The notes under the pieces are model-generated. The model worked only from the letters and a program-made list of their open reading frames with translations. It was not told where the DNA came from and ran no database searches. The position numbers and the translations under genes were made by a program. A stretch of DNA of 64,000 nt from Ianthella basta (lineage: Eukaryota > Porifera > Demospongiae > Verongiida > Ianthellidae), in assembly GCA_964019415.1 (NCBI GenBank), contig OZ025877.1:4046742-4110741 (forward strand), given 5' to 3'. Numbering within the stretch: the first letter of the stretch is position 1; each line of letters begins with the position of its first letter. Shown in pieces: positions 1 to 43,602 of this stretch.

Positions 1-2599
1 ATATATCCTGTCAGGGAACACTTTCAGGACCTGTCAATCCAGTGGACGGTGGTCTAACACTCTACCAACATGCATTAGTAAGAATGGAATGGCTAGCGTT
101 TAGCTAGGAATACCTGTGAAACATCATCATAGCTTTTTATTCTGTTATCTCGCTCTATAGGGTCGTGTGGCACTCCTAGCTTTCTGCTAAATGGACAGAG
201 AAACTACACCAACACCACTGCTGGGAGCACAGTCTGGTACACCTGTAATACAGGGTACAGGCTCTTTGGGATTTCTCATAGAACATGCCAGTCAACAGGG
301 CAGTGGTCAGGAAGCCATCCAACATGCTCTCGTAAGAAATAAATTATACATTAAAACACTCATCAAGGGCATTATTTCATCAGTGCCTTCTACTGCTGTT
401 GGATGAACTGAATATAGGTAGTTGCAGGGACCCAGGTGTTCCTACTAATGGAAGGAGAAGCCTCTCTGGTACTACAGAAGGGAAGGTCATCACTTACTTC
501 TGTGACTCAGGATACAAGCTCTCTGGAGATTCTAGCAGAACCTGTCAGTCTAATGGCAGATGGACAGGAAGCCTTCCAATCTGTCTTCGTAAGTTCCAAG
601 TGGAACAGACAACAGTCTTAAATGACATTCCTTGTGTGAAACATTAGATTATATGTGGCAAAATTTAATGCACCTTTAATTATAATTGCATTTAAAGTAT
701 AACCCGTAATGCGAATGTACCTAAACATCGTACATATTGGATTGTAAGGTCAGTCAGCACCTCAGATGAGTATATACTATGGCTTAGACACTTTCCCTTA
801 TGGGAACAAGGAATTTACCTTTCAGCTATGTACAATAGTGAGATATTAATGAGTATATATCATCGTGGAGTGAACATCAAAGCCTCATATGCATCATCTT
901 CTCATTCTACCTAGGAGACTGCAGTGACCCTGGTACTCCATTAAATGGAGGTAGGAATTATATCAACTCCACTGAAGGAAGCATTGCTTTCTACACATGT
1001 AACAAAGGCTACACTCTCTCTGGAAGTACAGACAGAACCTGTCTTTCAACCGGACTGTGGTCAGGGCACTTGCCATCTTGCTCAAGTAAGCAGATGAGTC
1101 GATGCCATTATTCATCACTTGAATAAGATGTTCATTTATATGCACACTCTTCAGCATATAGCCCTACACATCTTTTCTTGTAAGGGTCTTGTGGTACACC
1201 TGACTCCCTACTGAATGGACAGAGAAACTACACCAACACCACCGTTGGCAGCACAGTCACCTACACCTGTAACACAGGGTACAGGCTGACGGCAGGCAGT
1301 TCTAGTCGGACATGCCACTCGAGTGGCCTGTGGTCAGGGACACATCCTATTTGCTCACGTCAGTTTTAATTTGTTCTATAATTAGGTATATTATTATAAA
1401 TAATAGTTTTTCAAAAATTTCCTTGTAAGAGTTTCATGTTACTGCAAGCTGCTGACTGTGATGTATATAGGTAACTGCCAGGATCCAGGCAGTACCACCA
1501 ATGGAGGGAGAATCCTGTCAGGTACCACAGAGAGGCAAAACGTGACTTACTTTTGTAATGCAGGATACAGCCTCTCTGGAAATCATGGCAGAACCTGTCA
1601 ATCTAATGGACAATGGACAGGAAGCATCCCAGTTTGTGCCCGTAAGTTCTAATAATATAAAACTTGCAGAGTCCTTTGAAAATTTATTTGCATGTACTTT
1701 AATAAAGGTGACTGCAGTGATCCTGGTATTCCACTGAATGGAGGCAGGAATTATACCAGCACCACTGAAGGAAATATTGCTTTCTACACATGTAACAAAG
1801 GATACAGTCTCTCTGGAAGTTCAAGCAGAACTTGTCTTTCAAGTGGATTATGGGCTGGACATCTGCCAACTTGTTTGAGTTAGTCTTAATTCTTAATGTG
1901 GTATCAGGGAAAACTTTACACTATTTGCAGAAACCACAAAACTGAAACATTTCACTGAAATTTTCCACTGTTGCTGCATTAGGAGACTGTGGTGACCCAG
2001 GCAGTCCTGATGCAGGAGGACGAATCTATTCCAACACCACAGTTGGGCACACTGTCATTTATACCTGTGACACAGGTTACAAGATGTTGGGAAGTTTTCA
2101 CAGAATATGCCAGCAGAATGGACTATGGTCTGGAAGTGTTCCTCTCTGTAAACGTAAGTAATGTATTTTATAGTAATGCGAATTTATCATGATGTGTTTC
2201 ATTTTGTCTGTAGTATCAATAATGTTACAATAATTATTATTTATGGTGAGCATGCATGCATGCAATGTTTGCCATCAGCTGAAGCTCAAATTTTGACAAT
2301 TTATTGACTATTCATTGTCTTTACCTAGGATATTGTGGTGATCCTGGTGTTCCAACAAGTGGAAGTAGAAATTTGACTGGTGACACAGAGGGACATACAG
2401 TCGCTTACGCATGCATTACAGGATACAGGATTTCTGGAAGGATAACCAGGTCATGCCAGTCTAATGGAATGTGGTCTGGCAGCCTGCCCTCTTGTACCCG
2501 TAAGTGAATACACTATGAAACTATTAGCATGAAGTACAATTGCATGTGACACTTCCTCATTACAATTATATGACTGCTATATTAATTCCATTACCTCTG

Positions 2600-2640
<41 letters not shown>

Positions 2641-4317
2641 GCATGGTATGAATGATGGTCAGTTGCTCATGCAAGTAATTGTAAGCAGACACTTTCACCT
2701 CTTCTCTGTGCATCATGCACAAGGTGACTGCAGTGACCCTGGCAACACTACAAATGGACAGCAAAGCATTACTGATACCACAGTGGGACACAGCATCACT
2801 TATACCTGCAACACAGGGTACAGAATGACTTCTGGTACTGCAATCAGAAGATGCCAGTTAAATGGTCAATGGTCTGGGAGTCATCCAGTCTGCTCTCGTA
2901 AGTTGATGGTTGACAAAATGTACTATGTCCTATTTTCACATGGGATTTTGTTTGTGACAATATTCATCTGGAAATAGGATACTGTGGTGACCCTGGCAGC
3001 ACAATCAATGGAGGACGAAGCATCACTGGAACCACAGAAGGACACAACGTCACATACACTTGTAACACAGGGTACAGACTGACTGCTGGGAGTTCGTTCA
3101 GAAGATGTCAGTCAAGTGGTCAATGGTCAGGGATTCAGCCAACTTGTTCACGTAAGTTGCTGTACTCCTACTTTCATGTCTTTTGTAATTATTGCAATTT
3201 GCTAATATTGGCCAACACATGACCAAATCACAGGTTACTGTGGCACTCCTAGTACCATAGCTAATGGAAGAAGAAGCATCACTGGGTATACACAAGGACA
3301 CACAGTCTCTTACACTTGTGACAATGGGTACCTACTCTCCGGTAGTGTAACCATGACCTGCCAGTCAAATGGGATCTGGTCGGGAAGTCAACCTTCATGT
3401 AATCGTGAGTTGTAAACATAATAATTCATCTGCTGGAAGACTGATGCTGTGCCAGTGATGTTGTGTTTGGATATAGCAAGATTTGCATGATTGTAATTCA
3501 CAACGAAGTGACTCAACTGTGAAATTTACCTTCACCTGTTCAGGAAATTGTGGTGATCCAGGAGACCCTAAAAATGGAGTTGGAACCCTTACTGGCACCA
3601 TAGTAGGACACAATATCACTTACACCTGTACCTCAGGGTACAGACTAACTCATGGTAGTTCTGTCAGAAGTTGTCAGTCAAATGGTCAGTGGTCAGGGAC
3701 GCTGCCGACATGCTCTCGTAAGTACACACTTATGACAATTATGACTGTGAATTATGTGTTTTCATAGAAATATTGACTAATTGCAAGAAGCATTGCCAAC
3801 ATAGATTTTCTTTTCTGCCTACCTTTTGGCTATTACTAAGGGTATTGTGGTGACCCTGGGATGGCAATAAATGGTAGGAGAAGCATCACCGGGTTTACTG
3901 AAGGACACACTGTTACTTACACCTGTAAGACAGGGTACAGTCTCTTAGGAAGCACATCTACCAGAACATGCCAAACAGCTGGAATATGGACTGGGAGTTT
4001 GCCATCATGTGCTCGTAAGTTATGTACATACATATTATACATTCGGAATTGTGCTTACCTAGCTAGGTACTAGGAGTCCATGCATGTTATTCAATGTGTT
4101 CAAACTGCTGTTAGTGCCTCTCTGTGGAATGTATACTGTACAGGTGAGTGTGGTGACCCCGGCAATGTTGCAAATGGAATAAGAACTATTTCTGGCACCA
4201 CAGAAGGACATAGAGTCACATACTCTTGCAGTGCAGGGTACAGGCTTGTAGGTGATGCAGTCAGAACTTGCATGCCTGCAAGTGGACAATGGTCAGGCAC
4301 TCAGCCAAACTGCTCTG
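1..4317 (+). CDS. Gene 1 CCP (sushi) block, 15 one-exon modules
   Basis: Exons: 1-77 (partial), 161-331, 418-588, 915-1085, 1185-1358, 1471-1641, 1708-1878, 1983-2153, 2329-2499, 2724-2897, 2978-3151, 3234-3404, 3544-3717, 3841-4014, 4144-4317. Each complete exon is 171-174 nt, starts and ends in phase 1, and encodes one CCP with four Cys, the inner TGY/AGY turn and the W-x-G/S motif before the last Cys (for example C-GDPG, YTC-TGY, TCQ-NGxWSG, PxC). CCP modules are extracellular binding folds known from complement regulators and adhesion proteins. Symmetric phases make the modules freely shuffled or skipped without frameshift. Most donors are GTAAGT-like; exon 1708-1878 uses GTTAGT. An intronic CA microsatellite sits at 2602-2638. 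Confidence 0.93.
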
Positions 4318-7300
4318 GTATGTACCAGTTGTCATGCAATTGTAATGGGGCTCTATGGATCTGGCTCAACATGATAAACTTACATTCTAGTATATAAATC
4401 ATCAGTTTCATGTTAACTTGTGTGTACATGGAATCCAACTCTGTTGCTTGCTTCACATATGATTCTTCTCAGAAATACTTCCAACCATTATTGGTTTCAA
4501 GGAACCTTATCTGCAAGTGCAGATGGAGGAGGGAGTAGTGTCAGTCTGTTTGGTGAGGAAGAGAAACTTGTACCGAGTGGACTCCGCCACAGTAGTAACT
4601 TTACAACAGTTGGAGACTGAAATGGCAACAGGTTTGTAATTACTTCTATATTACTACCACTACTATGCAAATGTCAGTGCTTCAAATTTTTAATATAGAG
4701 AGACCTAGGGCTTATTATTTAATGTCTGTCATCATTTCAAGCATGGCTAGAGAGATAGCCGCAAAGAAGCACTATAAATTATTGTAGTCACCAGTAATGT
4801 TCATACGTACTTGTGCACCTAGTATGGACATTATTAACTATGAACGAACTTCTGTGTATCAGCAGAAATGATCAGATTGCAGTCAAATGCTTCAACATCA
4901 ATATTGACCATGATGCAGACTCACTTACATACACTGAAGAAACAAATGGAACAAAAATATTTACCTTATTTGTTTCAATATCAAAATCAGTATCCAGGAG
5001 AGCGGTGGTTGGGTAGCTGTGTCCTAGCTGCTTTATGTACAACCAGTATCAATGTTCAAGGCACCTAAGTGTGTCCTTGCGGAACTGGCTACATGGCTTT
5101 GTAATGGAAGCATGACAATTTTTGATAATTCTCGCTTGATCTATTGCAGATTCTGGAAACAACAGCATGACTGTCACGTTTGATATTGGTGTATCGGAAG
5201 CATGTTTTAACTACAGTTTTGTGGAAACAATGAATACTGAACAATTTAGTCTGATGATATTGAACAGTACAAACAAGACTGAAGTCAACCCAGGTTCAGA
5301 ATATGTTGTCATCAACATTGTGGAAAGAAATTCACGTAGGTAGATGACGTAGATTGATAAATAGCAACAGATGACATTTGAGTGTTTCTATTGATAGTAT
5401 CATTCAATTCTTCAATCTATTCTCTGTGTTTTTTCCATCAGCTTGTCCTTCTGCCTTCCTCTTTCCCGAGACCCCCATCAGCTCGCAAGCTGAAGTCCCT
5501 TGTTCATTGCTGGATGGTAGTTTCTTTCCAGGTGGTGTAATTACTGCTCGTTGCTCTATGCACAGCACATGGGATACTCTGGACATGTCTCAGTGCACCT
5601 TCAGGAATGATGCTCTACCATCTGCAGTAGCGGTGGTGGAGGTTATTACAGACGCGGATTCACAAAAGGAGACCCTTGAGGTATAATTCACAGAAATATA
5701 CAAGCTGAAACGTAACCTGGGGCCTATCTCTACTCATCTTTAACATTACATATAATCACACTATACCTTGCATTCAGACTGCTTTCCAAATTTCTTTCAC
5801 TTTAGAGAGCCATACAGCACTTGTCACAAGTGAAAAACACATCACAAATTTGGTCGCCTAGACAATCACAAGTGTATGCTATAAGGATGATCAATGAAAC
5901 AGATGCAAGTGCCCTAATGAGTCTCCTACAGAGTGTTTCAAGCAGGGTTTTGTCTGTGATGGTAGCCCACAAATCAGGTATGGTAATATATACCTCCTAT
6001 TATATATTTGTGTGGATTCCAAAATAAGCTGTATACACAGAGGCACTTACATTTATCTGTGTATATCAAACTAACTATTTCATTCGTAGATTTCTGCAAC
6101 TGCTGTGGTTACTCAGCAATTAGGGCACAACCACTGTTTTCACTGTCAGTCAGTTTCAATGTATGTGTTGGGAGGTCTGAGGCCCCCCAGGCCTGTTCCT
6201 GCTCCAGTGAAGGCCTAAAGGTGAGGTATTTATGACTGTGACATACCCTTCGTGCCATATAAAAAATAATTAACTCTCATTGTGGCCTCGCATACGTTTC
6301 AGTGCCATCCACGATTCAGCCGTATGCCTGGCCCACCAGCACAGTGTTTCCTTGATGTCGATGGAGACAGAATACCTGACCAGAAGGTGAACAAGCGAGA
6401 ACTGCACATCATCAAGCACATCACATGCACAACAAAACCACTGCACGCCACAACCCATTATATAGCATTATGTGAATGATTTTCTCCTTCATCCCTTCAT
6501 CAACACATGCTCGTTAGGACCCTTGTATTGGCTGCTGTCTGCCGGACTTTGACCTGACTTTCCAATGGCCTCAAACACCTCATAATTCAATTGCAGAGTT
6601 GCCGTGTACCACAATTCACTCTAGTTTCTCCAAAACCAGTGTGAGAAGGAGATGCCGTCCTGATGACTCCTGGGAAGCAGTAGACATGAGTTCATGCACT
6701 TTTAAGAACACTGCAAGGAATCCAATCTACTTCTTCACAGCTAATGGGACATTGAACAGTCAGGAGAACAATACTGAGGCATTTAGCGGAATGAAAAGAG
6801 CAGTTGAAACACAGGTAGCAGAAAATTAACACACCTTGAATGTGTTTATATATGTACATTAATCATTGTAATAATAGTATTATTTTGTTGGTACGTGTGT
6901 ACATCATGCCATTACTCATTACCTTGTATACAGCTGAACAAATTGACTGAGGGAGAAATCCTTGGCAATGATTCCTACAAAATTACAACACAGGCAATCA
7001 CCAGCAGTGGAGCTAATAGTTCCATTGTCTTGTTAACAGTAGAATTTCAACCAACTGTGAAATTAGCAGAAAATACAACATCCATCACATCTGTAACAGA
7101 CCCCTTCAATGGTGCAAACTACAATATTTTGAAGATTTTTGCTGCCACACCTTCAGGTAAAAGTGCAACTTCATTGCAATTGTTGAGTGTCTGTCTTTGG
7201 ATCCTCATTTGTCTCATCAACATGTTCTTGGTACATTTCCATGTTAATTATCTATTTGCATGCTTGCAGAAACATGTTCCTGTAGAGCAGGCACCAGTCA

Positions 7301-7621
7301 GGTTGCCCATCTCTGTGCTGGCCCATCCATTAGGCCATGTACCTGTGACTGCTTTGGAGCATGTGAAGTGAGCATGAAATGTGCAATCCAACGTAGGATG
7401 AAGGTTTTCACATTATATCACTGTACGCTTCTTTCCATGCTGTATGCAGTGCATTGACCCTTATGTGATGGACGTTAAGAGCGGTCAGTGCTCCTTGGAC
7501 ACAGATGGGGATAACATCCCAGACTACAGAGTAAGTGCTGCCTATACTAAAACTACTACAGTGATCATATTCTTCAAATGAAGCTATAGTTGCCAAGTGA
7601 ATTTTTGGTTCATTTCTTCAT

Positions 7622-7655
<34 letters not shown>

Positions 7656-10600
7656 ATGTGTGAGTGAGTGTGCCACACCTTGTTGTGTTTCCATGCGATA
7701 ATGTTTGATGTTTGATTATGACTGACGATGAAGTTATGGTATAAGAAATCATGAATTACAAACTGATGAAGCATCTTACTGTTGCATGAAATATTTGGTG
7801 AAAGTGGAATAGATAGTTGTAGCATATATTTATTCGCACATCTTAGAAGAAATAATAACTGAAGATAAATGACATAAATTATTGTGTATTCTGTCCTTTA
7901 TATCAATTACAACAATTGTTTGACTTCGTACACACACTGTCTTTGTTTGTCCTGCAGGATGATTGCCCCAGTGCACACGGACCAGCAGTAGGAGAATCTG
8001 GAGGATGCCGTGAGTTGATATGGCAACATAACACAGCAATCATGCAGCTAAATTAATGCATGCAATTTTCATGCACGTTTGATAATGCTGTTAGGAATAT
8101 CTGTGTAACTGCTCCTCCGTGACATTGTAATATATTCTGTGCTACCTTTTCCACGCTGATTGCTATACAGCAAGTAATGTAGGCCATTCAATATCTGTGA
8201 GTTGCCCTCAAGAGTATGACAAGCTGTGGAAGATCCAGTGGTCACCAGCTCCTACTGGAGCCAGCCAGTCTGTCCGCTGTCCTGGGGAGGGAGATGAAGT
8301 TGGGTTGGGGTTGGCTCACAGGAGCTGTCTGTCTGATGGCAATTGGGGACCTGTAGATGCAATTGCTTGTGAATCTGTCAGTGTCCGGGAGATCAGGATT
8401 GAGGTATCTTCCGTTCTACTATGAATATGCATGTTTCATACAGCACTTAGGGATGACTTCTATCTTGCCATTTCTTTCTGAACTAATGCGCAGATGGAGA
8501 ATTTGCTTTGTGCTATGAACCAGACAATTTCTTATGGCCTTCCTCTTCTGGCTGAGAACAAAGCCACAGTGGAGAGGTTAACGTTATACCTTCAGGATAC
8601 TCTGAACAAGTCAAATGGCAGATCTCTTCTACCTCAAGACTTGGAAACAGCAACTGCCTTTGTAGAATTTGTAGCCAGGTAAATTACGAAACGTTGAGTT
8701 TATGTTTTGGTGAATGAACAGTTTTCTGCCTTCATAATCTCATGCACATCATTGTGACTGAACATTTGAATCTTTTCTAATGTGTAGCCTCACTATGAAC
8801 AATGATCTATTTACGACGATGGTGAACAGACAGCCAGGAAAGGTATAATTATACGTAAATATATAGGTACTGTAGATCCAACGTTCTACAGTAACAATGG
8901 GAAGAACTGCATTATGCATGGCAGCTTCAAAGATATGTAATAAATAAATGTAAAAATTATGTTTGTAGGTTGAGGCGCACATTATCAGCTCCCTACTGGG
9001 TGAGAAGAACAAACCAGCATTAGAATTAACTAACAAGGTATGGATCCAAGATATTCTAATTGATACACGCAAAATTATTTTGCCATTTTGTTTAATATTG
9101 AGGCATTTTTATGTGGCCCTCTGTAACCAATTATTGTACAGTCTCTCGCCTCAAGGATGCTCAAGGCAACAGAAGTGATGGCTGATGCAGTGACGTCATC
9201 CATTCCTACTGACAAAACTAGTGTCACCATTTCAACACCAAATTTAGGTAAATTGATGTAACTTTACTGGCCATTCTTAGTAAGCTATTGGTGGTATATA
9301 CTTTCTGCCTAATCAATGTTCCTTGTCCATTTCCTTCAGCACTACATGGCACCAAACTTCCATTTGATAAGTTAGAAATGCACAGTACTCTGCTTTTCCC
9401 GGATGATTCAGTCAATCTACTTCAATTCAGCATACCATCACTGATCCCTCACATTAAGATGCCCACTGCATTTATCGCGGCAACCAGAAGTGGGGAGGTA
9501 CAAGTTGGAGTAAAGAGTATGGAAGTAGTGAATGTTGTCCCGAGAAACATAGAGGATTACCTTCAAGAAGTAATAAGGTATGATACAGAAGAGAAGTGAG
9601 TGACTGCATGTGGAGATGAAAACACAGTATTGCTTATTTCAGTAACAGTATCTTAGTATGCATGCATTCAATGACACAAATCCTGCACTTTTTGGAAACA
9701 GTATTATAAGAATGCATGTTGTCTACACATATTATCTGAAAACATGCAGTAAAGAACCATCCGAAGAGGCCACACCTGCTAGCCTTGTACTCTCTAGTCA
9801 AATCCTTGGCTACAGTGGTGGGGATCTGGACACCAATGAGACTGTGGAGCTGACATTCCCCATCAAGGTATATAAATAATATGTGCATTCTGTTATTTTA
9901 TAGTCCTTCCTTATACAAACAGTATTATTTTAATGCTGTCTAGTAGCACAAGGGAGTGGTTATTAAATTAAAGATTGTAAAATACATGTGTTTGAATAGA
10001 CTCATGGAGACGTCAATGGAATTGAACCAGTAGAATGTTGACTAATGGCAATTTTTCACCTCAATTACAGGAAGAGACAATTATGGCAACTGTGCCCACT
10101 GGAAAAATGAAGCTGTTCCGCTGTGCCTTCTTCAACTTCACTGGAGGTGCCAACCAAACTGGAGGGTGGTCCTACAGAGGACTGCTCACTGAAGTCATTA
10201 ATGACACACATGTTCTGTGTAAAACCTCCCACCTCACAAGCTTTGTGGTTCTGGTCAGTATTGTGCCCTCCAATGATCTAGTAAGTTAATACATGCACAT
10301 TGGGCTGTGTACAATTCAAATGACCATCACTATTGAGAATGTTCTTCCTCGTCTGCAGTCTCCACTGTCTTATATCATATACATTGGCACTGGTTTTTCT
10401 TTCCTTTGCTCAATTGTTGCTGTCATCTTTTATATTTCTTTAAGGTTGGTGCTGAAATTGCATGTAGAATGTAGCAGTAAATTTAGCTGGCACCTTTTGT
10501 TTGCAACTTCTCTGATTCAGAAAACAGTTGATTCTGAAACTCCATAATTTTGTTCACCTCAACCTGTGCATTGCCCTTTCCTTGGGACTGCTCCTGTTCC

Positions 10601-13114
10601 TCACTGGAATACAGACAGCCACAGACAATGTGGTAAGTGTGACTTACTCCCTCCCCCCACCCCCCCACCCCACCCCACACTCTTTCAAAAGGGCTTATGT
10701 GAAAACATACATTATGTATGTAACTGTAGTGTAACAAGTAACTGCTGCAGCACTTCAGATCTGTATGCTTACTAAACATTTATGGACATAGCATCTGTTG
10801 AAAATTACAAGAAATTAAAGCAACGGATGTCATGCTTTAAATTTTGGTTTCTCTTTGTTGTTGATCAATCATCCATAGGTAGCCTGCAAGAGTGTAACTA
10901 CCTTGTTACACTACCTCTTTCTGAGCATGTTCAGTTGGACACTGTGCGAAGCTATCCTCATTTGCAACCTCCTTACAAAATCTTTCGGAGTGAATGACAG
11001 GAAATGGATTTTCATCTATCTGGCACTGGGATGGGGTATGCATGGGTACATTTCCTATACTATATTAGACTCTTTAATTTTATCAGTTGCACAAAAATTA
11101 ATATAGCTCCTGTTTTCCTGCATAATTATAGCTAGCTATAGGAATTCTCTCAACCGCAGACTTGGCAATTATTCTCCCGGTTTAACCATTGTATTGTTTA
11201 GGTCTTCCCATTCTAATTGTGGCAATATCTGCTGCATTGAACCATGAGAACTACCTCATTAGACATTCATATGATGAAGGGAGCCCTCACAGCAGCAAAA
11301 TTTTAGCGTGAGTCATAACACCTCAGTCATGTCTGGATTGTAATATTCATGAATATATAATTATAGCTACATTATTTACTCATTTTGCTCCATGTGCAGT
11401 TGCTGGTTGCCCAGTGAGACAGGGGCAATTTCTGCTTTTGTAGTACCAGTTGCAGCATACTTTGTGGTGAGGAGTATATTTTCATGTAAAGTGGCAGTTG
11501 CACCACATGGCATCTCGTAAAACTCTGACCATTCATTGCAAATGATATACGATAATACTATTTTATATGATTATGCTATTCAAGATTTGAATCATGCTGC
11601 TATCCCTGGTATGCAACTTTGGTACTGACATGATTTCAATAGTGCTGTGCTGCATTCCTTGATTTATTCCACAGGTGAATGCAGTACTGCTCACTGTGAG
11701 CTTGGTGTCACTGGCTAGGTCAAAGTGCAGAAAATCTAGACTGGAGGATGATACCAGCGATGGGCAGGTTGAGGAGTATCTATCAGTGGGCAAGTGAGTG
11801 ATGATATAGTTAATATACCACTTCACTCACTAATGCTTGCCATGATTATGCAACTTTAATGGTTGTGTTATAATGGGCTACCCAACACATATATACATCT
11901 CCACATCAGTTCAAATTCTTCAGTGCAAACAACCAAATACCTGTAACAGTGTTTAGCTGACAGCAATAGTTCTACTTGATACTATGTCACAATGATAAAT
12001 TATAGCCACTATCCTACTAAAGAGTTTAGATATACTGCATAATAATATTACTATATTGTTTGCCCAATCTTAATGTCATATCAATGCAGCTTTCCTTCAA
12101 TCAAAATGATGTTTAATTGCTTGACTGCAGGCGTCTTCTTCAAGCCATATTCATCTTTGTTCCTGTACTGGCATTCACCTGGATCATTGCACTGTTTGCA
12201 GTGGGAGAGGAGGGGAGCGTCTTTACCTACCTCTTTGTCATCAGCAATGTGATTCAAGTAAGAGAGCTTCATTGGCATCTTTTATACTAAAGTGAAAATG
12301 GACCATTGTTACAACTCAGCTACAAAATTGCTGCGTTGTTGTTCTTTGTGAACTCCAACCAATGCAGGGGTTATTACTACTTCTGTTTTATGTCATAAGA
12401 CATGAGAATGTGTGGTGGAAAATAAAGGCACAATTTTCAAAGGTAATGATGATTATGACAGTTTAGACAATGTTTAATCATTTGCTGTGCATAATTTGAA
12501 CTGGTGCAAGCACCACATTTGTGTGCATACAGGCAAGGTTGATAGTCTTTTGTAATGTAATCACAGATGTAGAGATCAGGTATATAAATATATATAATGT
12601 GTGCTGTATTTTGCAATTAACATCTATCATTTAGAAAAGCTACACAATTGGAACAGGATCAATCCCCAATATTGCAGGTAACTGTATGTTTATATGCAAG
12701 CCATAACATTGAAGGAAACTTGAATACTTTTAATATAGCATTATACTATTAAAATATGATGTTATTACAGTATAATACTTATTTGCTTATACATTATGTC
12801 TCTCCTCAGATCAACTTCCGCCAGGTACCATCCCGTCTACTACTAGTAAGCTGGGGGAATTTGATGGCTGCAAGCGCTCAAGTGAAGTGGCAAGCGATGC
12901 TGGTTCCATTACTGATGAGTGTGGAGAAAGGGAGCAATGTGAGAGTGGCCAGGGAACAGGGATGCTTGAACTGCTGTCCAGTGCAGTGGATGAAGGGGAA
13001 AAAGGCAACGCCTATGACGTACCCTATCCCATTGCAACCACCGACTTTGAGGAAGGTGATATGGGGGATGAGGAATCACCTTATGCAGAAGTCCTGGATG
13101 AGCCATGCACATGA
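1..13114 (+). CDS. Gene 1: CCP-rich adhesion GPCR (3' part, 5' end outside window)
   Basis: Multi-exon gene for a large cell-surface receptor of the adhesion (class B2) GPCR family. Module order: at least 15 CCP, Calx-beta-like, repeated HormR-like/TSP3-like stalk, HormR, GAIN, GPS, 7TM, cytoplasmic tail. I placed about 44 exons by AG/GT boundaries and homology to the second copy at 28.4-38.1 kb. Every junction keeps reading phase: CCP exons are 1-1, the stalk mixes phases 0, 1 and 2, and the tail ends at TGA 13112-13114. No in-frame stop was found in any assigned exon, so this copy looks functional. Family knowledge: such receptors are self-cleaved at the GPS and the new N-terminus acts as a tethered agonist. 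The ligand is unknown; the ectodomain suggests adhesion or recognition. Signal peptide and promoter lie left of the window. Exon coordinates are in the domain entries below. Confidence 0.88.
2602..2638. repeat. CA microsatellite
   Basis: Short (CA)n in the gene 1 intron before the CCP exon 2724-2897. Confidence 0.95.
4473..5335 (+). CDS. Gene 1 Calx-beta-like domain (two exons)
   Basis: Exons 4473-4631 and 5150-5335, both phase 1 to phase 1. The first reads EILPTIIGF, a YLQVQ strand, then VVSVCLVR and ATVVTLQQL; the second reads DSGNNSMTVTFDIGV, EACFNYSFVE and FSLMIL. The order (conserved strand with V-S-V-C, then a V-T-F-x-x-G strand, a Cys-x-N strand, then F-x-L) is the pattern of Calx-beta-like extracellular repeats, which are abundant in sponge adhesion proteins. 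Calx-beta family domains bind calcium; I cannot confirm calcium ligands here. The 518-nt intron contains a sequence that is nearly identical in the second copy but does not fit as an exon (see rejected items). Confidence 0.6.
5442..8009 (+). CDS. Gene 1 stalk: two tandem HormR-like / Cys-rich / TSP3-like modules
   Basis: Exons: 5442-5680, 5806-5977, 6090-6220, 6303-6386 (module 1); 6518-6814, 6934-7156, 7270-7367, 7450-7530, 7958-8009 (module 2). Each module opens with a Cys-containing segment ending W-x-x-x-D-M-S-x-C-T-F, resembling the hormone-receptor (HormR) motif, followed by a helical, Thr/Ser-rich exon (GAIN-A-like), a Cys-rich exon, and a loop LDxDGDxIPD. Across the splice the loops read D-x-D-G-D-x-I-P-D-x-x-D, the calcium loop of thrombospondin type 3 repeats; in both modules the intron falls just before the final Asp. 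Likely an extended, calcium-stabilised stalk between the CCP/Calx part and the GAIN domain. I did not recognise a named domain for the Cys-rich exons. Confidence 0.72.
7625..7654. repeat. GT microsatellite, about 30 bp
   Basis: Pure (GT)n in the intron between the exons 7450-7530 and 7958-8009; orthologous position to 32192-32401. Confidence 0.95.
8171..9867 (+). CDS. Gene 1 HormR and GAIN domain exons
   Basis: Exons: 8171-8403 (HormR-like: Cys, W-x-I-x-W, R-C-P-G, R-S-C, G-N-W-G, I-A-C), 8494-8678, 8788-8842, 8969-9037, 9142-9247, 9340-9577, 9657-9867. The exons after the HormR segment are rich in short amphipathic helices (VERLTLYLQDTL, ATAFVEFVAR, VNRQPGK, LASRML), as in GAIN subdomain A, then beta-rich segments (VNLLQFSIPSLIP, VQVGVKSMEVV, ETVELTFPIK), as in GAIN subdomain B. 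They lead straight into the GPS exon. The phases (0, 2, 0, 0, 1, 2, 0) all match. The family role is autoproteolysis and holding the tethered agonist. The exon 9657-9867 is the one disrupted by a foldback element in the second copy. Confidence 0.8.
10071..10280 (+). CDS. Gene 1 GPS (GPCR proteolysis site) exon
   Basis: A 70-codon phase 0-0 exon. It carries RCAFFNF, GGWSYRG, VLC and SHLTSFVVLV. The H-L-T tripeptide at about 10233-10241 is the expected self-cleavage site (between L and T), and the downstream TSFVVLVSI would be the exposed tethered agonist. Of the four usual GPS cysteines, those at RC-AFF and VL-C are present; the one normally after W-x-x-x-G (here G-L) and the second of the usual C-x-C (here C-K-T) are both absent. 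See findings. Confidence 0.9.
10359..12442 (+). CDS. Gene 1 seven-transmembrane core, class B2
   Basis: Exons: 10359-10444 (TM1, YIIYIGTGFSFLCSIVAV), 10521-10632 (TM2, LHNFVHLNLCIALSLG), 10879-11035 (TM3 and start of TM4, LLHYLFLSMFSWTLCEAI, WIFIYLALGWG), 11202-11307 (TM4, LPILIVAISAAL), 11400-11466 (ECL2/TM5, CWLPSETGAISAFVVPV), 11675-11793 (rest of TM5 and loop), 12131-12257 (TM6 and TM7, FIFVPVLAFTWIIALF, YLFVISNVIQ), 12368-12442 (end of TM7, GLLLLLFYVIRHENVWW). H-L-N-L-C-I-A-L, L-L-H-Y-F/L-F-L, C-W-L and the N-x-x-Q-G turn at TM7 are hallmarks of adhesion GPCRs. The TM7 turn is split by an intron exactly between Q and G. Phases 2,0,1,2,0,2,0,0 all join in frame. Confidence 0.93.
12635..13114 (+). 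CDS. Gene 1 cytoplasmic tail with ITIM-like motif (last two exons)
   Basis: Exons 12635-12677 and 12810-13114. The tail is acidic, about 115 residues after TM7, with the tyrosine sites YDVPYPI and SPYAEVLDEPCT at the C-terminus. S-P-Y-A-E-V matches the ITIM consensus (S/I/V/L)-x-Y-x-x-(I/V/L); Y-D-V-P matches the Y-x-x-P class bound by SH2 adaptors such as Crk/Abl. Both are predicted only from sequence. Stop is TGA at 13112-13114. A possible polyadenylation hexamer ATTAAA lies at about 13233. Confidence 0.85.
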
Positions 13115-13689: not shown

Positions 13690-14401
13690 GAACAGCTTTC
13701 AACTTTTAAATTTGTCACTAACACCACGCTCACACATACTAATACTCCAGTAGGTAAGGTTTACCCCTGGCAATAACCACATGCATTGTTTGCTATGGTG
13801 GCAACCCACATGCTGCACAAGTAACTTGGCATAACAGCAGTGATGATCAGCTACTGGACAGTCTAGCACCTTGTGGAGACTGTGATGGCCGCTGTCAAAG
13901 CAATGGTGCTGTATACAGCTGATAGTGATAACAATTGGAACAGGAACACAATCGTCAATATTGCAGGTAACCTTATGTTTATATGAAAGCCATAACATTG
14001 ATGGAAACTCGAATACTTTTAATGTAGCATTATGATATTACAATATGATGTTATTACAGTAAAATAATTTTTCTTATACATTATGTCTCTCCTCAGATCA
14101 ACTTCAGCCAGGTACCATCACGTCTACTGCTGATAAGCTGGAGGAATTTGATGGCTGCAAGTGCTCAAGTGAAGTGGCTAGTGATGCCGGCTCCATTACC
14201 GATGAGTGTGGAGAAAGGGAGCAATGTGGGCGTGGCCAGGGAACGGGGATGCTTGAACTGCTGTCCTGTCCAGTGGATGAAGGGGCAAAAGGCAACGACT
14301 ATGACGTACCCTATCCCATTGCAACCCCCGACTTTGAGGAAGGTGATATGGAGGATGAGGAATCACCTTATGCAGAAGTCCTGGATGAGCCATGCACATA
14401 A
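13690..14401 (+). CDS. Duplicated terminal exons of gene 1 (possible alternative 3' end)
   Basis: A tandem copy of the gene 1 3' end. 14097-14401 is an intact last exon starting after CCTCAG, in the same phase as 12810, with the same YDVPYPI and SPYAEVLDEPCT sites and a TAA stop at 14399-14401. The matching small exon copy (about 13929-13967) has a 2-nt length difference from 12635-12677, which would shift frame, so splicing 12442 or 12677 directly to 14097 is the more likely way to use it (12677 to 14097 keeps phase 1). The non-coding flank after the stop is also duplicated. It could be an alternative terminal exon or a relic. Confidence 0.6.
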
Positions 14402-25745: not shown

Positions 25746-25827
<82 letters not shown>

Positions 25828-25885
25828 ACACACGCACACGCACATACACACACATACACACACAGTACACACACATACACACACA

Positions 25886-25952
<67 letters not shown>

Positions 25953-28855: not shown

Positions 28856-31800
28856 GTATGTACCAGTTGTCATTCAATTGAAGTATAATTGTTATGAGGC
28901 TCTATGGATCTGGTGAAACATGATAAACTTACATTCTAGTATATAAATCAAGTCTGACATAACATCAGTTTCATGTTACCTGTGTGTACATGGAATCTAA
29001 CTCTGTTGCTTGCTTCACATATTCTTCTTCTCAGAAATACTTCCAACCATTATTGGTTTCAAGGAACCTTATCTGCAAGTGCAGAAGGAGGAGGGAGTAG
29101 TGTCAGTCTGTTCGGTGAGGAAGAGAAACTTGTACCAAGTGGACTCTGCCACTGTAGTAACTTTACAACAGTTGGAGATGGAAATGCCAACAGGTTTGTA
29201 GTTACTTCTATACAACTACCACTACTACTATACAAATGTCAGTGCTTCAAAATTTACTATAAAGAGACCTACGGCTTATTATTTTTAAGTTTGTCATCAT
29301 TTCAAGCATGGCTAGAGGCAACTGCAAAGAAGCACTAGTCACCACTAATGTTCATATGTACTTGTGCACTTAGTTTGAACATTATTAACTATGTACGAAC
29401 TTCTTCGTATCAGCAGAAATGCTCAGATTGCAGTCAAATGCTTCAACATTAATATTGACCATGATGCAGACTTAGATACTCTGAAGAAACAAATGGAACA
29501 AAAGATTTTCCTTAGCTATTTTCAATCATACAATCAGCATGTGGGAGAGGAGTAGGTGAGTGGAGGTGTCCTAGCTGCTTTATGTATCACCATTGTCCAT
29601 GTTCAAGGCACCTATAGTGGGACCTAACCTAAGTGTGTCCTTGCGGAACTGGCTACATAGCTTTGTAATGGAAGCATAACGATTTTTGATAATTCTTGCT
29701 TGATCTATTGCAGATTCTGGAAACAACATCATGACTGTCACGTTTGATGTTGGTGTATTGGAAGCATGTTTTAACTACAGTTTTATGGAAACAATGAATA
29801 CTGAACAATATAGTCTGATGATATTGAACAGTACAAACAAGACTGAAGTCAACCAGAGTTCAGAATATGTTGTCATCAACATTGCGGAAAGAAATTCACG
29901 TAGGTTGATAAATAGCATAGTATAGATGATGTTTGAGTATTTTTATTGATAGTATCATTCAATTCTTCAATCTATTCTCTGCGTTTTTCCATCAGCTTGT
30001 CCTTCTGCCTTCCTCTTTCCTGAGACCCCCATCAACTTGCAAGCTGAAGTACCTTGTTCATTGCTGGATGGTAGTTTCTTTCCAGGTGGTGTAATTACTG
30101 CTCGTTGCTCTATGCACAGCACATGGGATACTCTGGACATGTCTCAGTGAACCTTCAGGAATGATGCTCCACCATCTGCAGTAGCAGTGGTGGAGGTTAT
30201 TACAGACTCTGATGCACAAAAGGAGACCCTTGAGGTATAATTCGCAGAAATATACAAGATGAAACGTAACCTGGGGCCTATCTCTACTCATCTTTAACAT
30301 TAAATACAATCACACTATACCTTGCATTCAGACTGCTTTCCAAACTTCGTCCACTTTAGAGAGCCATACAGCACTTGTCACAAGTGAGAAACACATCACA
30401 AATTTGGTCACCTAGACAATCACAAGTGTATGCTATAAATGATTAGTGAAACAGATGCAAGTGCCCTAATGAGTCTCCTACAGAGTGTTTCAAGCAGGGT
30501 TTTGTCTGTGATGGTAGCCCACAAATCAGGTATGGTAATTATACTTCATATTATATTATCTGTGTGGATACCAAATTAAGCTGTATAGACAAGAGGCACT
30601 TACTTTTATCCGTGTATGTCAAACTTCATTCATAGATTTCTGCAACTGCTGTGGTTACTCAGCAATTAAGGTACAACCACTGTTTTCAGTGTCAGCCAGT
30701 TTCAATGTATGTGTTGGGAGGTCTGAGGCAACTCAGGCCTGTTCCTGCTCCAGTCAAGGCATAGAGGTGAGGTATTTATGACTGTGACATACCCTTTGTG
30801 CCATATATAATATAATTACCTCTCATTGTGGCCTCACATACGTTTCAGTGCCATCCCCGATTCAGCCGTATGCCTGGCTCACCAGCACAGTGCTTCCTGG
30901 ATGTTGATGGAGACAGAATACCTGACCAAAAGGTGAACAAGCGATAACTGCTGCACATCCTCAAGCACATCACATGCACAATAAAACCATTATTATCTGC
31001 AAAATCAGATTTGTGAATGAACTGCACGCCACAACACATTATATAGCACTATGTGAATGATTTTCTCCTTCATCCCTTCATCAACAAATGCTCATTAAGA
31101 CCCCTGTGTTGGCTGTTGTCTGCCGGACTTTGACCTTACTTTCCAATGGCCTCAAATGCCTCATAATACAATTGCAGAGCTGCCTTGTACCACAATTCAC
31201 TCTAGTTTCTCCAAAACCAGTGTGAGAAGGAGATGCCGTCCTGATGACTCCTGGGAGGCAGTAGACATGAGCTCATGCACTTTCAAGAACACTGCAAGGA
31301 ATCTGATCTACTTCTTCACAGCTAATGTGACAATGAGCAGTCAGGAGAACAACACTGAGGCACTTAGTGGAATGAAAAGAGCAGTTGAAACACAGGTAGC
31401 AGATTACTAACATACTGTACATTAATCATCATATTAATAGTATTGTTTTGTTGGTACATGTGTACGTTGGTACATCATTCCATGGCTCATTACCTTGTAT
31501 ACAGCTGAACAAATTGACTGAGGGAGAATTCCTTGGCAATGATTCCTACAAAATTACAACACAGGCAATCACCAGCAGTGGAGCTAATAGCTCAATTGTC
31601 TTGTTAACAGTAGAATTTCAACCAACTGTGAAATTAGCAGAAAATACAACATCCATCACATCTGTAACAGACCCCTTCAATGGTGCAAACTACAATATAT
31701 TGATAACTTTTGCTGCCACGCCTTCAGGTAAAGTACTACTTCAATGCTATTGCGGAGTGTCTGTCTTTGGATCCTCATTTGTTCTGACCAACACGTTCTT

Positions 31801-32191
31801 GGCACATTTCTATGTTCGTTATCTGTTGCATGCTTGCAGAAACATGTTCCTGTAGAGCTGGCACCAGTCAGGTTGCCCATCTCTGTGCTGGCCCATCCGT
31901 GAGGCCATGTACCTGCGACTGCTTTGGAGCATGTGAAGTGAGCATGAAATGTGCAATCCAACATTGGATGAAGGCTTTTACATTATATCACCTCACGCTT
32001 CTCTTCCATGCTGTATGCAGTGCAGTGACCCTTATGTGATGGACGTTAAGAGCAGTCACTGCTCCTTGGACACAGAAGGTGATAACATCCCAGACTACAG
32101 AGTAAGTGTTGTCTACATATAGTGAAAATGTCATCATAATTATCCTTCAAACGAAGCTATAGTTGCCAAGTAAATTTTTGGTTGCTCTCAT

Positions 32192-32403
<212 letters not shown>

Positions 32404-34465
32404 TAAGTGTGCCACACCTTGCTGCATTACCATGCGATAATGTTTGATGTTTGATTATGCCTGCACGATGAAGTTATGGTATAAGAAATCATGAGTTACA
32501 AACTGATGAAGCATCTTACTATATATTGCATGAAATATTTGGTGAAAAATGGAATAGATAGTTGTAGCATATATTTACTCACAGATCTTAGAAGAAATAA
32601 GAACTGACGATAAATGACATAAATTACTGTGAATTCTGTCTTTTATATTTACTGCAACAATTGTTTGACTTTGTACATACACTGTCTTTGTTCGTCTTGC
32701 AGGATGCTTGCCCCAGTGCACACGGACCAGCAGTAGGAGAATCTGGAGGATGCCGTGAGTTGATATGGCGACATAACATAGCAAACATGCAGCTAAATTA
32801 ATGCATGCAATTTTCATGCACGTTCAACAATGTAGTTCTAAGGAATATTTGTATAACTGCTCCTCCGTGACATTGTAATACATTCTGTGCTACCTTTTCC
32901 ACGCTGATTGCTATACAGCAAGTAATGTAGGCCATTCAATACTTGTGAATTGCCCTGAAGACTAAGACAAGCTGTGGAAGATTCAGTGGTCACCAGCTCT
33001 CCCTGGAACCACCCAGTCTGTCCACTGTCCTGGTGAAGGAGATGCTGTTGGGTTGGGGTTGGCTCACAGGAGCTGTCTGTCTAATGGCAATTGGGGGCCT
33101 GTAGATGCAACTGCTTGTGAATCTGTCAGTGTCCGGGAGATCAGGATTGAGGTATCTTTCGTTCTACTATGAATATGCATGTCTCATGCTGCACTTAGGG
33201 ATGACTTCTATCTTGCCATTTCATTTCTGAACTAATGTGCAGATGGAGAATTTGCTTTGTGCTATGAATCAGACAATTTCTTATGGCCTTCCTCTTCTGG
33301 CTGAGGACAAAGCCACAGTGGAGAGGTTAACGTTATATCTTCAGGATGCTCTGAACAAGTCAACCGGCAGATCTCTTCTACCTCAAGACTTGGAAACTGC
33401 AACTGCCTTTGTGGAATTTGTAGCCAGGTAAATTACGAAACGTTGACAGTGTATGTTTTGGTGAATGAACAGTAGTCTGCTTTCATAATCTCATGCATTT
33501 CAATGTGACTGAGCATTTGAATCATTTCTAATGTGTAGCCTCACTATGAACAATGATCTATTTACGGCGATGGTGAACAGACAGCCAGGAAAGGTATATG
33601 CACAACTATATAGGCACTGTAGATCCAACAGTTCTACAGTAACAATGGGAAGAACTGCATTATGCATGGCAGCTTCAAAGATATGTAACAAATAAACGTA
33701 AAAATAATGTTTGTAGGTTGAGGCCCACATTATCAGCTCCCTACTGGGTGAGAAGAACAAACCAGCATTAGAATTAACTAACAAGGTATGGATCCAAGAT
33801 ATTCTAATTGATACACGCAAAATTATTATGGCATTTTGGTTAATATTGAGGCATTTTTATGTGGTCCTCTGTAACCAATTATTGTACAGTCTCTCGCCTC
33901 AAGGATACTCAAGGCAACAGAAGTGATGGCTGATGCAGTGACGTCATCCATCCCTACTGACAAAACTAGTGTCACCATTTCAACACCAAATTTAGGTAAA
34001 TTGATGCAACTTTACTGGCCATTCTTAGTAAGCTAATGGTGGTATAAACTTTCTGCCTAATCAATGTTCCTTGTCCATTTTCTCCAGCACTACATGGCAC
34101 CAAACTTCCTTTTGATAAGTTGGAAATGTACAGTAGTCTGCTTTTCCCGGATGATTCAGTCAATCTACTTCAATTCAGCATACCATCACTGATCCCTCAC
34201 ATTAAGATGCCCACTGCCTTTATCTTGGCAACCAGAAGTGGTGAGATACAATTTGGAGTAAAGAGTGTGGAAGTAGTGAATGTTGTCCCGAGAAACATAG
34301 AGGGTTACCTTCAAGAAGTAATAAGGTATGATACAGAAGAGAAGTGAGTGACTGCATGTGGAGATGAAAACACAGTATTGCTCATTTCAGTAACAGTATC
34401 TTAGTATGCATGCATTCAATGACACAAATCCTGCTCTTTTTGGAAACGGTATTATAAGAATGCAT

Positions 34466-34724
34466 GATACTGTAGAGGTTCATTACTGCGTGTTCACGAT
34501 GCAGGGGAAGTTAATGAGCTTCGAGCGCAGTACTGACTTCAGTGGGATACAAGACCTTTCGATCCGTAGATCTTCATCAGTTGTAATACAAAACCTAGGG
34601 AAGCGCGACATTAAATAAGGGCTTCCCTAAGTTTTGTATTACAACTGATGAAGATCTACGGATCGAAACGTCTTGTATTTCACTGAAGTCAGTACTGCGC
34701 TCGAAGCTCATTAACTTCCCCTGC
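34466..34724. mobile_element. Foldback element with paired hammerhead-like motifs, inside an exon
   Basis: Inserted in the pseudogene counterpart of exon 9657-9867. Target duplication ATAAGAATGCAT at 34454-34465 and 34725-34736. The two arms are near-perfect inverted repeats (GCAGGGGAAGTTAATGAGCT at 34501 and its complement ending at 34724). Each arm has a hammerhead-like core facing inward or outward: + strand at 34645-34672 (CTGATGA, A, GATC-TACG-GATC, GAAA, CGTC) and minus strand at about 34553-34580. No coding capacity. Likely a non-autonomous relative of Penelope-like elements. Confidence 0.8.
34645..34672 (+). ncRNA. Hammerhead-ribozyme-like motif, intact core
   Basis: CTGATGA core, one A, 4-bp stem GATC/GATC closed by a TACG (UNCG-type) tetraloop, GAAA core, then CGTC as the expected cleavage-site side. 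This is the best-preserved of the copies in the window. The extra A after CTGATGA is shared by most copies. Activity is a prediction. Confidence 0.5.
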
Positions 34725-35088
34725 ATAAGAATGCATGTTGCCTACACATATTATCTGAAAACATGCAGTGAAGTACCATCCGAAGAGGCCACACCTGCTA
34801 GCCTTGTGATCTCTAGTCAAATCCTTGGCTACAATGGTGGTGATCTGGACAGCAATGAGACTGTGGAGCTGACATTCCCCATTAAGGTATATGTATTATA
34901 AGTGCATTCTTTCATTATACAGTCCTTCATTATACAAACACTATTATTTTAATGCTGTCTAGTAGCATACGGGAGGGGTTATTAAATTAAAGATTACACA
35001 TTTATGTGTTTGAATTGAATCATGGAGACGTCAATGGAGTTGAACAAGTAGAATGTCGACTAATGGCAATTTTTAACCTCAATTGCAG

Positions 35089-38000
35089 GAAGAGACAATT
35101 ATGGCAACTGTGCCCACTGGAAAAATGAAGCTGTTCCGCTGTGCCTTCTTCAACTTCACTGGAGGTGCCAACCAAACTGGAGGGTGGTCCTACAGAGGAC
35201 TGACCACTGAAGTCATCAATGACACACATGTTCTGTGTAAAGCCTCCCACCTCACAAGCTTTGTGGTTCTGGTCAGTATTGTGCCCTCCAATGATCTAGT
35301 GAGTTAATACATGCACATTGGGCTGTGTACAATTCAAATGACCCTCACTATTGAGAATGTACTTCCTCTTCTGCAGTCTCCACTGTCTTATATCATATAC
35401 ATTGGCACTGGTTTTTCTTTCCTTTGCTCAATTGTTGCTGTCATCTTTTATATTTCTTTAAGGTTGGTGCCGAAATTACATGTAGAATATAATAGAGAAT
35501 TTTGCTGGCACCTGTTATTTGCAACTTCTCTGATTCAGAAATAAATTGATTCAGAAACTCAATAATTTTGTTCACCTCAACTTGTGCATTGCCCTTTCCT
35601 TGGGACTGCTCCTGTTCCTCACTGGAGTGCAAACAGCCACAGACAATGTAGTAAGTGTGACTTCCTCCCTCCCGCCCCACACTCTTTCAAAAGGGTTTAT
35701 GTGAAAACATACATTATGTATGTAACTGTAGTGTAACAAGTTACTGCTGTAGTTATATAGTATACTTACTGAACATTTTTGGGCATAGCATCCGTTGAAA
35801 ATTACAAGAAATTGAAGCAATGGAAGTCATGCTTTAAATTTTGGTTTCTCTTTGTTGTTGATCAATCATCCATAGGTAGCCTGCAAGAGTGTAACTACCT
35901 TGTTACACTACCTCTTTCTGAGCACATTCAGTTGGACACTGTGTGAAGCTGTCCTCATTTGCAACCTCCTTACAAAATCATTCGGAGTGAATGGCAGGAA
36001 ATGGATTTTCATCTATCTGGCACTGGGATGGGGTATGCATGGGTACATTTCCTATACTATATTAGACTCATTAATTTTATCAGTTGCACAAAAATTAATA
36101 TAGCTTCTGTTTTCCTGCATAATTATAGCTAGCTATAGGAATTCTCTCAACCGCAGACTTGGCAATTATTCTCCCAATTTAACCATTGTATTGTTTAGGT
36201 CTTCCCATTCCAATTGTGGCAATATCTGTTGCATTGAACCATGAGAACTACCTCATTAGACATTCATATGATGAAGGGAGCCCTCACAGCAACAAAATTT
36301 TAGCGTGAGTCATAGCACCTCAGTCACGTACACCTATGGCCAACTCGGAATAGTAATATTCATTAATATATAATTATAGCTACATTATTTACTCATTTTG
36401 CTCCATGTGCAGTTGCTGGTTGCCCAGTGAGACAGGGGCAATTTCTGCTTTTGTAGTACCAGTTGCAACCTATTTTGTGGTGAGGAGTATACCTTTATGT
36501 AAAGTGGCAGTTGCATCACATGGCATCTCGTAAAACTCTGACCATTCATTGCAAATGATATATGATAATTCTATTTTATATAATTATGCTATTCAAGTTT
36601 TGAATCATGCTGCTATCCCTGGTGTGCAACTTTGGTACTGACGTGAATTCAATAGTGCTGTGCTGCATTCCTGGATTCATTTTACAGGTAAATGCAGTAC
36701 TGCTCACTGTGAGCTTGGTGTCACTGGCTGGATCAAAGTGCAGAAGATCTAGACTGGAGGATGATACCAGTGATAGGCAGGTTGAGGAGTATCTATCAGT
36801 GGGCAAGTGAGTGATGATATAGTTAATATACCACTTTACTCACTAATGCTTGGCATGATTATGCAACTTTAATGGTTGTGTTACATAATGGGCTACCCAA
36901 CACATATATACATCTCCACATCAGTTCAAATTCTTCAGTCTAAACGACCAAATACCTGTAACAGTGTTTAGCTGACAGCAATAGTTCTACTTGATACTAT
37001 GTCACAATTATAAATTATAGCCGATATCCTACTAAAGAGTTTAGATATACTGCATAATAATATTATTATATTGTTTGCACAATCTTAATGTCATATCAAT
37101 GCAGCTTTCCTTCAATCAAAATGATGTTTAATTGCTTGACTGCAGGCGTCTTCTTCAAGCCATATTCATCTTTGTTCTTGTACTGGCATTCACCTGGATC
37201 ATTGCACTGTTTGCAGTGGGAGAGGAGGGGAGCGTCTTTACCTACCTCTTTGTCATCAGCAATGTGATTCAAGTAAGAGAGCTTCATTGGCATCTATTAT
37301 ACTAAAGTGAAAATAGACCATTGTTACAACTCAGCTGGAAAATTGCTGTGTGTCTGTTGTTTGCGAACTCCAACCAATGCAGGGGTTGTTACTACTTCTG
37401 TTTATGTCATAAGACATGAGAATGTGTGGTGGAAAATAAAGGCACAATTTGCAAAGGTAGTGATATGACATTATAGACAAAGTTTCACCATTTGCTGTGG
37501 ATTATTTTGAACTGGTGCAAGCACCACATTTGTGTGCATACAGGCAAGGTTGATATATAGTCTTTAGTAAATGTAATCACAGAGGTAGAGATGAGGTATA
37601 TATAATTCGTGCTGTATTTTGCAATGAACATCAATCATTTAGGACAGCTACACAATTGGAACAGGAGCAATCACCAATATTGCAGGTAACTGTATGTATA
37701 TATCAAAGCCATAACAATGAAAGAAACTTGAATACTTTTAATGTAGCATTATACTATTATAATATGATGATATTTACAGTATAATAATTTTTTCTTATAC
37801 ATTATGTCTCTACTCGGATCGACTTCCGCCAGGTACCATCACGTCTACTGCTGGCAAGCTGGAGGAATTTGATGGCTGCAAGTGCTCAAGTGAAGTGGCA
37901 AGCGATGCCGGCTCCATTACTGAAGAGTGTGGAGAAAGGGAGCAATGTAGGAGTGGCCAGGGAACAGGGATGCTTGAACTGCTGTCCTGTCCAGTGGATG

Positions 38001-38122
38001 AAGGGGCAAAAGGCAATGACTATGACGTACCCTATCCCATTGCAACCACCGACTTTGAGGAAAGTGATATGGGGGATGAGGAATCACCTTATGCAGAAGT
38101 CCAGGATGAGCCATGCACATGA
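35089..38122 (+). pseudogene. GPS, 7TM and tail exons of the receptor copy
   Basis: GPS exon 35089-35298 is intact and keeps SHLTSFVVLV. TM1 to TM6 exons are intact by reading. In the TM7 exon a T is missing in the run CTGTTTATG (gene 1: CTGTTTTATG), shifting frame to TAA at 37410-37412. The tail exon 37818-38122 keeps YDVPYPI and SPYAEVQDEPCT but its acceptor is CTCGG instead of CTCAG. The tail sequence is closer to the duplicated tail at 14097 than to the one at 12810. Confidence 0.82.

Positions 38123-39136: not shown

Positions 39137-40015
<879 letters not shown>

Positions 40016-43526: not shown

Positions 43527-43602
<76 letters not shown>

Follow-up and report, generated by a model that had tools for sequence, protein, structure and literature searches.

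The window analysed here is the whole stretch of 64,000 nucleotides at C10:4046742-4110741 in the 209-Mb genome of the sponge Ianthella basta (C10 is contig OZ025877.1). From position 161 to position 13114, its forward strand carries a predicted gene for an adhesion G protein-coupled receptor (GPCR) with complement control protein (CCP, or Sushi) repeats in the ectodomain and two short tyrosine motifs in the cytoplasmic tail. This tail is the subject of the present analysis. We assembled the gene model from splice borders and phase. It has 41 exons, 14 for CCP repeats and 27 from 5442 to 13114. The 27 exons all have AG/GT borders and join into a single open frame, whose sole stop is at the end of the tail.

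The CCP array (161..4317) consists of exons at 161-331, 418-588, 915-1085, 1185-1358, 1471-1641, 1708-1878, 1983-2153, 2329-2499, 2724-2897, 2978-3151, 3234-3404, 3544-3717, 3841-4014 and 4144-4317. Each is phase 1-1, and joined they encode 803 amino acids without a stop. The first three repeats, which of the 14 were the ones submitted to Pfam, were typed together as Sushi (E = 2.5e-31). The window yielded no 5′ end for this gene; the receptor has at least 14 CCP repeats. A candidate linker exon at 5150..5335 (forward strand, phase 1 in and 1 out, AG/GT borders, open) would link the array in frame to the downstream part. It is one among many exon candidates for 4400-5440, and the join of the CCP array to the rest is putative. 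The 61 amino acids of this exon had no match in a Pfam search.

The downstream part, all on the forward strand, begins with 10 exons (5442..8403) for HRM-type cysteine-rich modules and a TSP3-like stretch. HRM was matched in three stretches (6.1e-15), and TSP_3 (E = 0.02) fell short of its cut-off. Seven exons (8494..10280) form the expected GAIN region with a GPS at its end (8.8e-8). The part from 5442 to 13114 (1261 amino acids) matched five Pfam families at E-values up to 1, namely 7tm_2, HRM, GPS, TSP_3 and SIDD_N. No GAIN model was among them, so the GAIN domain is assigned from its position. The GPS cleavage sequence HL/T (cut between L and T) lies directly before the first transmembrane segment (TM1), in SHLTSFVVLVS, and the start of the C-terminal fragment after the cut resembles a tethered agonist. 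The seven-transmembrane (7TM) domain is intact, with eight exons in frame (10359..12442, from 10359-10444 to 12368-12442). Its 7tm_2 match (1.8e-39) spans positions 3-249 of 250. A juxtamembrane exon of 43 bp (12635..12677, phase 0 in and 1 out), encoding KSYTIGTGSIPNIA, lies between TM7 and the tail and fixes the reading frame of the tail. When the part from the GPS to the tail was compared with solved structures, the best match was ADGRD1 (3.6e-35), with SHLTSFVVLVS aligned with THLTNFAILMQ. Because of the Pfam matches to HRM, GPS and 7tm_2 and the match to ADGRD1, the receptor core is, by sequence, that of an ordinary adhesion GPCR.

The tail exon (12810..13114, forward strand) reads ...NAYDVPYPIATTDFEEGDMGDEESPYAEVLDEPCT up to its stop codon and carries Y-D-V-P at 13013..13024 and S-P-Y-A-E-V at 13076..13093. 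A previous sequence-only reading had reported both motifs and had placed them in the tail of a CCP-rich adhesion GPCR. Both motifs are read at this exon, and splice borders and phase join it in frame to the intact 7TM domain. The same reading had stressed that the motifs are kept in three copies of the tail within the window, even in a pseudogene. Their letters are indeed present at 12810, 14097 and 37818, but this agreement carries little weight, as follows.

The intact 7TM gene carries only the first copy. The second (14097..14401, forward strand) has an intact acceptor and an open frame but no transmembrane exon of its own, and would therefore be either orphaned or used as an alternative last exon. 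It belongs to a duplication of 12644-13438 into 13931-14746, 90% identical, which starts inside the 43-bp exon. The third, at 37818-38122, ends a pseudogene copy of the receptor (29996..38122, forward strand; 93.8% identity over 7766 aligned bases). The lesions of the pseudogene are 2-bp and 1-bp exon deletions, two in-register stops and the loss of two acceptors, one of which is the tail's own (GG). The three tails differ from each other at 17-22 positions per 305 bp (6-7% of the DNA), with a ratio of nonsynonymous to synonymous divergence (dN/dS) of 0.41-1.09. At 15 random changes per 100 codons, three given codons would escape change by chance with a probability of 0.63, and five with a probability of 0.46. 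As the three tails are close recent duplicates, their agreement is not evidence of conservation, and we discarded it as such. For a short motif, presence in tandem copies that are almost identical must not be taken as conservation.

We searched the genome with the tail and obtained 16 hits. Fifteen were kept: the three window copies, ten on C10 and C41, and two on C18. The two C18 hits were weak (E-values of 0.009 and 4.5), and the weaker one, L023, was retained on account of the family's TM6 and TM7 exons that lie upstream of it. Hit L024 (E = 5.5) looked unrelated in sequence and was dropped. A TM7 exon was present upstream of the tail in all 12 loci outside the window. When 11 of these loci (all but L019) were checked, nine had an exon candidate of 43 bp and matching phase between TM7 and the tail; the candidate was 40 bp in L021, and L023 had no row. 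The gene structure that joins the tail to the 7TM domain thus appears conserved in the paralogues, which partly stands in for RNA evidence. By these comparisons, the window gene belongs to a family of adhesion GPCRs that has been amplified.

At one pair of these loci (L012/L013, C10:4161003-4167193), a cassette of TM7 plus tail is tandem-duplicated. Identity is 94.6% between the two TM7 stretches (92 bp) and 76.7% between the tail regions (450 columns); no second TM6 exon was found there. This pattern suggests that the 3′ cassettes may be used alternatively and be under selection.

Three observations show that the tail encodes protein and evolves under purifying selection. Among nine diverged tails (the three window copies, L019, L021 and L023 being left out), the mean dN/dS over 36 pairs was 0.38 at a dS of 0.16-0.65. 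In ten tails, variable sites by codon position numbered 52, 40 and 72, third positions being the most variable. The frame that contains the tyrosine motifs was the only one open in all 15 tails. A longer frame overlapping the tail exon (12753-13166) was considered as coding and rejected, since it needs the 43-bp exon to be skipped. Each of the other two window copies has an open equivalent of this frame, and one to four stops interrupt it in 11 of the 12 diverged tails (none in L015); the tyrosine frame has no stop in any of the 15.

What the diverged tails share is mainly Y-x-x-P. This motif was present in 14 of the 15 tails (12 of 13 if the window's copies count as one) and in 11 of the 12 diverged paralogues. 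The total of 26 sites is made up of one per window tail, two in each of ten others and three in L017, with none in L023. D or E stood at +1 in 24 of them. At the first site, Y was found in 14 tails and P at +3 in all 15, encoded by three different proline codons, while +1 varied among D, E, A and Q and +2 among V, S, M, A and L. When 13 tails were aligned over 132 columns with the window as one row (w37818 and w14097 dropped), this proline was among the six invariant columns. In a second alignment of 11 tails (w37818, w14097, L021 and L023 dropped), the window site paired instead with the second Y-x-x-P of the paralogues, and Y was present in 11 of 11.

The C-terminal site behaved differently at the positions that define an immunoreceptor tyrosine-based inhibitory motif (ITIM). 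S-P-Y-A-E-V of the window fits the ITIM consensus, written [I/V/L/S]-x-Y-x-x-[L/V] or [S/I/V/L]-x-Y-x-x-[I/V/L]; a strict or broad match was found in 3 of the 15 tails, all of them window copies, and in none of the 12 diverged paralogues. The sequence is P-V-Y-A-N-I in 8 of the 10 C10/C41 tails, and in all ten the residue at Y-2 (two before the site) is P, as in EPVYANI. The shared core is Y-A-x-[I/V], with N or E at +2; S at Y-2 is not shared. This core is kept in eight of the ten C10/C41 tails and in neither of the two C18 tails, where the site is absent. All 13 tails from the window and from C10/C41 have A at +1. In the sister paralogues L016 and L019, the terminal tyrosine is replaced by Asp and Asn, respectively, and the following ANIQ is intact. 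The sequence pY-x-N is a Grb2-type SH2 site. Its N at Y+2 is seen in eight of the ten C10/C41 tails (YANI), while the window tails have E there.

The suggestion of an ITIM coupled to an SH2 phosphatase was not borne out by these paralogues, given the lack of the consensus in all 12 and the proline at Y-2 in ten. On present sequence evidence, the feature kept in the family is the adaptor-type Y-x-x-P site and not an ITIM, and the ITIM fit appears to be a branch-private combination of the window's receptor, with S at Y-2. The tail tree is unrooted and does not order the ITIM-like and the proline-containing states by age.

For chance expectation, we shuffled the first window tail 20,000 times, five of the 15 tails being shuffled overall. 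The strict ITIM arose in 8.3% and the broad form in 11.1% of the window tail's shuffles. Two or more Y-x-x-P per shuffle arose with a frequency of 0.0002 for L021, 0.0095 for L013, 0.035 for L020 and 0.041 for L017, the real tail of which has three. As controls, we used the tails of eight adhesion GPCRs on C12, taken from 155 reported 7tm_2 matches, with the tail start set at the end of the 7tm_2 match and not by a gene model. None of the eight had an ITIM.

Several results weigh against a phosphotyrosine docking function of this tail. The single Y-x-x-P of the window tail arises in 19% of its own shuffles, and 2 of the 8 control tails have one (YGLP and YRLP). L023 has C in place of the Y-x-x-P tyrosine. 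Which Y-x-x-P of the paralogues matches the window's site depends on the alignment, as the two alignments disagree. The terminal tyrosine column has a conservation of 0.65 against a mean of 0.52 in 11 tails, only somewhat above average. All paralogues were drawn from a single genome, some of them being closely related, and hence are not independent. A scan of prokaryote contigs for relatives gave 31 pattern matches, none of which was confirmed, and no orthologue from another species was obtained.

With these points counted, the tail may be a phosphotyrosine docking module that combines two kinds of site, Y-x-x-P of the Crk-SH2 type and a C-terminal Y-A-[N/E]-[I/V]; we regard the chances of this reading as evenly balanced. 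Crk-type SH2 domains have Y-x-x-P as their binding consensus. In this model, the CCP/HRM ectodomain would bind a ligand or a surface. The receptor would be cut at HL/T, and the exposed TSFVVLVS would act on the 7TM domain as a tethered agonist, as the family and the sequence suggest. Src/Abl-type kinases would phosphorylate the tail, and the conserved Y-[D/E]-x-P site or sites would recruit a Crk-type SH2 adaptor, for which both the motif and precedent speak. The C-terminal Y-A-[N/E]-[I/V] would serve as a second site whose partner differs by branch: it would be pY-x-N (Grb2-like) in most C10/C41 paralogues and pY-x-E-V in the window's receptor. For precedent, phosphopeptides with a pYDVP core bound a choanoflagellate Crk SH2 domain, and choanoflagellate membrane proteins with cytosolic YxxP repeats are described (both in sections of PMC5043372). 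In the sponge Amphimedon, an excerpt of PMC7260276 reports the identification of Crkl, Grb2 and Shp2.

A different use of the C-terminal site is as an unphosphorylated Y-x-x-Phi sorting signal (Phi, a bulky hydrophobic residue), which would control endocytosis of the receptor. Such signals are read by AP-2-type adaptors. Y-x-x-Phi is present in 11 of the 15 tails, beside an acidic stretch. However, it arises by itself in 35-67% of the shuffles of the five tails, A at +1 in every window and C10/C41 tail goes beyond what a sorting signal requires, and the Y-x-x-P sites are left unexplained. We consider this explanation unlikely.

We find it more doubtful still that S-P-Y-A-E-V is a working ITIM, which when phosphorylated would recruit a tandem-SH2 phosphatase of the SHP type and make the receptor inhibitory. 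Receptors that recruit SHP commonly have a second, paired ITIM. The window tail has one site, and the second ITIM of such a pair is absent from it. The letters do fit [I/V/L/S]-x-Y-x-x-[L/V], Y-A-x-[I/V] recurs in most C10/C41 paralogues, GPCR ITIMs that recruit SHP-2 are established (in parts of PMC6148080 and PMC8398691), and the Amphimedon report cited above includes Shp2. Against this stand the absence of the consensus from every diverged paralogue, the proline at Y-2 of the C10/C41 tails and a chance match in about a tenth of shuffles (8-11%). The window's receptor might recruit SHP, although the evidence gives this no support, and on that evidence the trait would belong to a single intact gene.

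That the motifs have no function and are chance matches in an acidic disordered region under weak constraint is equally doubtful: it could draw on the dN/dS of up to 1.09 between window copies, on single motif matches that are not rare in shuffles and on the terminal Y lost as D in L016 and as N in L019, and it is opposed by the mean dN/dS of 0.38 over the 36 pairs of diverged tails, by the invariant P(+3) and the near-invariant Y around varying residues, and by the two Y-x-x-P of L021 with their shuffle frequency of 0.0002.

The docking reading can be extended, tentatively and with less confidence than we have in the docking itself, to an early-animal family of adhesion GPCRs in which complement-type recognition would be wired directly to phosphotyrosine adaptors. 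The tail would then be a small Cas-like scaffold with one to three Y-[D/E]-x-P sites for Crk. Its C-terminal site would have switched between a Grb2-type pYANI and an ITIM-like pYAEV, and TM7-plus-tail cassettes or tail exons would be tandem-duplicated so that tails could swap as alternative last exons.

Other features of the window and the genome were as follows. Upstream of the HRM/7TM part of the pseudogene, the region 18384-27315 has four SRCR stretches (2.5e-29 to 2e-33), CCP exons at 22815, 23622, 24460 and 25519, and a TSP_1 stretch (1.4e-6). From these matches, it may be the pseudogene's former ectodomain or a separate gene. The region 48552-63853 has near-identical repeated CCP exon units at 49039, 52112, 57853, 59206 and 63651 and looks like a recent segmental duplication of another CCP gene. 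On the reverse strand, 49812-50462 is a reverse-transcriptase fragment of a retroelement (RVT_1, 4e-21). Long microsatellite tracts of the (CA)n/(GT)n-like type, at 25616-26172, 32140-32473, 39567-40158, 43498-43809 and 57003-57268, generate spurious open frames of alternating residues. Elsewhere in the genome, C12:4781447-5038004 holds a cluster of 33 listed 7tm_2 matches, mostly single long open frames; the eight receptors of this cluster that were examined have short tails, unlike the window's family.

Compared with known adhesion GPCRs (class B2, of which ADGRD1 and ADGRL3 are the closest among solved structures by sequence), the window's receptor has the same HRM-GPS-7TM order, HL/T and a similar tethered-agonist-like start. 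It adds at least 14 CCP repeats and, in the tail, Y-[D/E]-x-P and Y-A-x-[I/V]. The sequence-only reading, made without searches, knew of no described receptor of the type it proposed. ITIM-tailed GPCRs as such are already described: sections of PMC6148080 and PMC8398691 report working ITIMs on sst2, OX1R, bradykinin B2 and CCK2. These are likewise 7TM receptors with an I/V/L/S-x-Y-x-x-L/V site and act with SHP-2 according to the same sections, whereas for the window's receptor such an action is hypothetical, and its paralogues lack the consensus.

The likeness of the tail to BCAR1/p130Cas and to the choanoflagellate transmembrane proteins is in the cytosolic Y-x-x-P, repeated in those proteins, and the window's YDVP is the core of the Crk-bound phosphopeptides (same sections of PMC5043372). 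The copies number 1-3 on these GPCR tails as against 10 in PTSG_05573 and 15 in human BCAR1. Unlike substrate proteins of the BCAR1/p130Cas type, the site is on a GPCR tail, and the 1261 amino acids encoded from 5442 to 13114 have no SH3 or FAT-like Pfam match. The GPCR-tyrosine kinase fusions (GPCR-TKs) of choanoflagellates and sponges also tie a 7TM domain to phosphotyrosine signalling (parts of PMC12716839); they have a fused tyrosine kinase domain, and the window's receptor has a putative docking tail instead.

For the combination, our literature searches gave negative results within their scope. No CCP-bearing adhesion GPCR turned up among the matches listed, including the portions considered of PMC6208332, PMC2246102 and PMC4302439. 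A figure legend in PMC4302439, on a selection of Amphimedon adhesion GPCRs, names SRCR, Ig types, EGF, fn3 and HRM, not Sushi. The words 'sushi' and 'CCP' have no occurrence in the main text of a survey of choanoflagellate GPCRs (PMC12716839), and SH2 and ITIM have none in the first 300,000 of the 412,533 characters of a 2026 review of adhesion GPCRs (PMC13197933). No sponge adhesion GPCR with an ITIM or SH2-docking tail was described among the literature matches listed, including the portion considered of PMC11999971. The parts are known already: ITIM-bearing GPCRs, CCP repeats, adhesion GPCRs and GPCR-tyrosine kinase fusions of sponges.

The motifs of the tail supply peptides that can be tested at once. 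In early-branching animals, GPCR-TK fusions are the known way in which 7TM receptors connect to tyrosine kinases (as stated in parts of PMC12716839). If the tail docks SH2 adaptors, the receptor family of I. basta would provide a concrete direct link from a GPCR to Crk or Grb2 in an animal that is probably early-branching.

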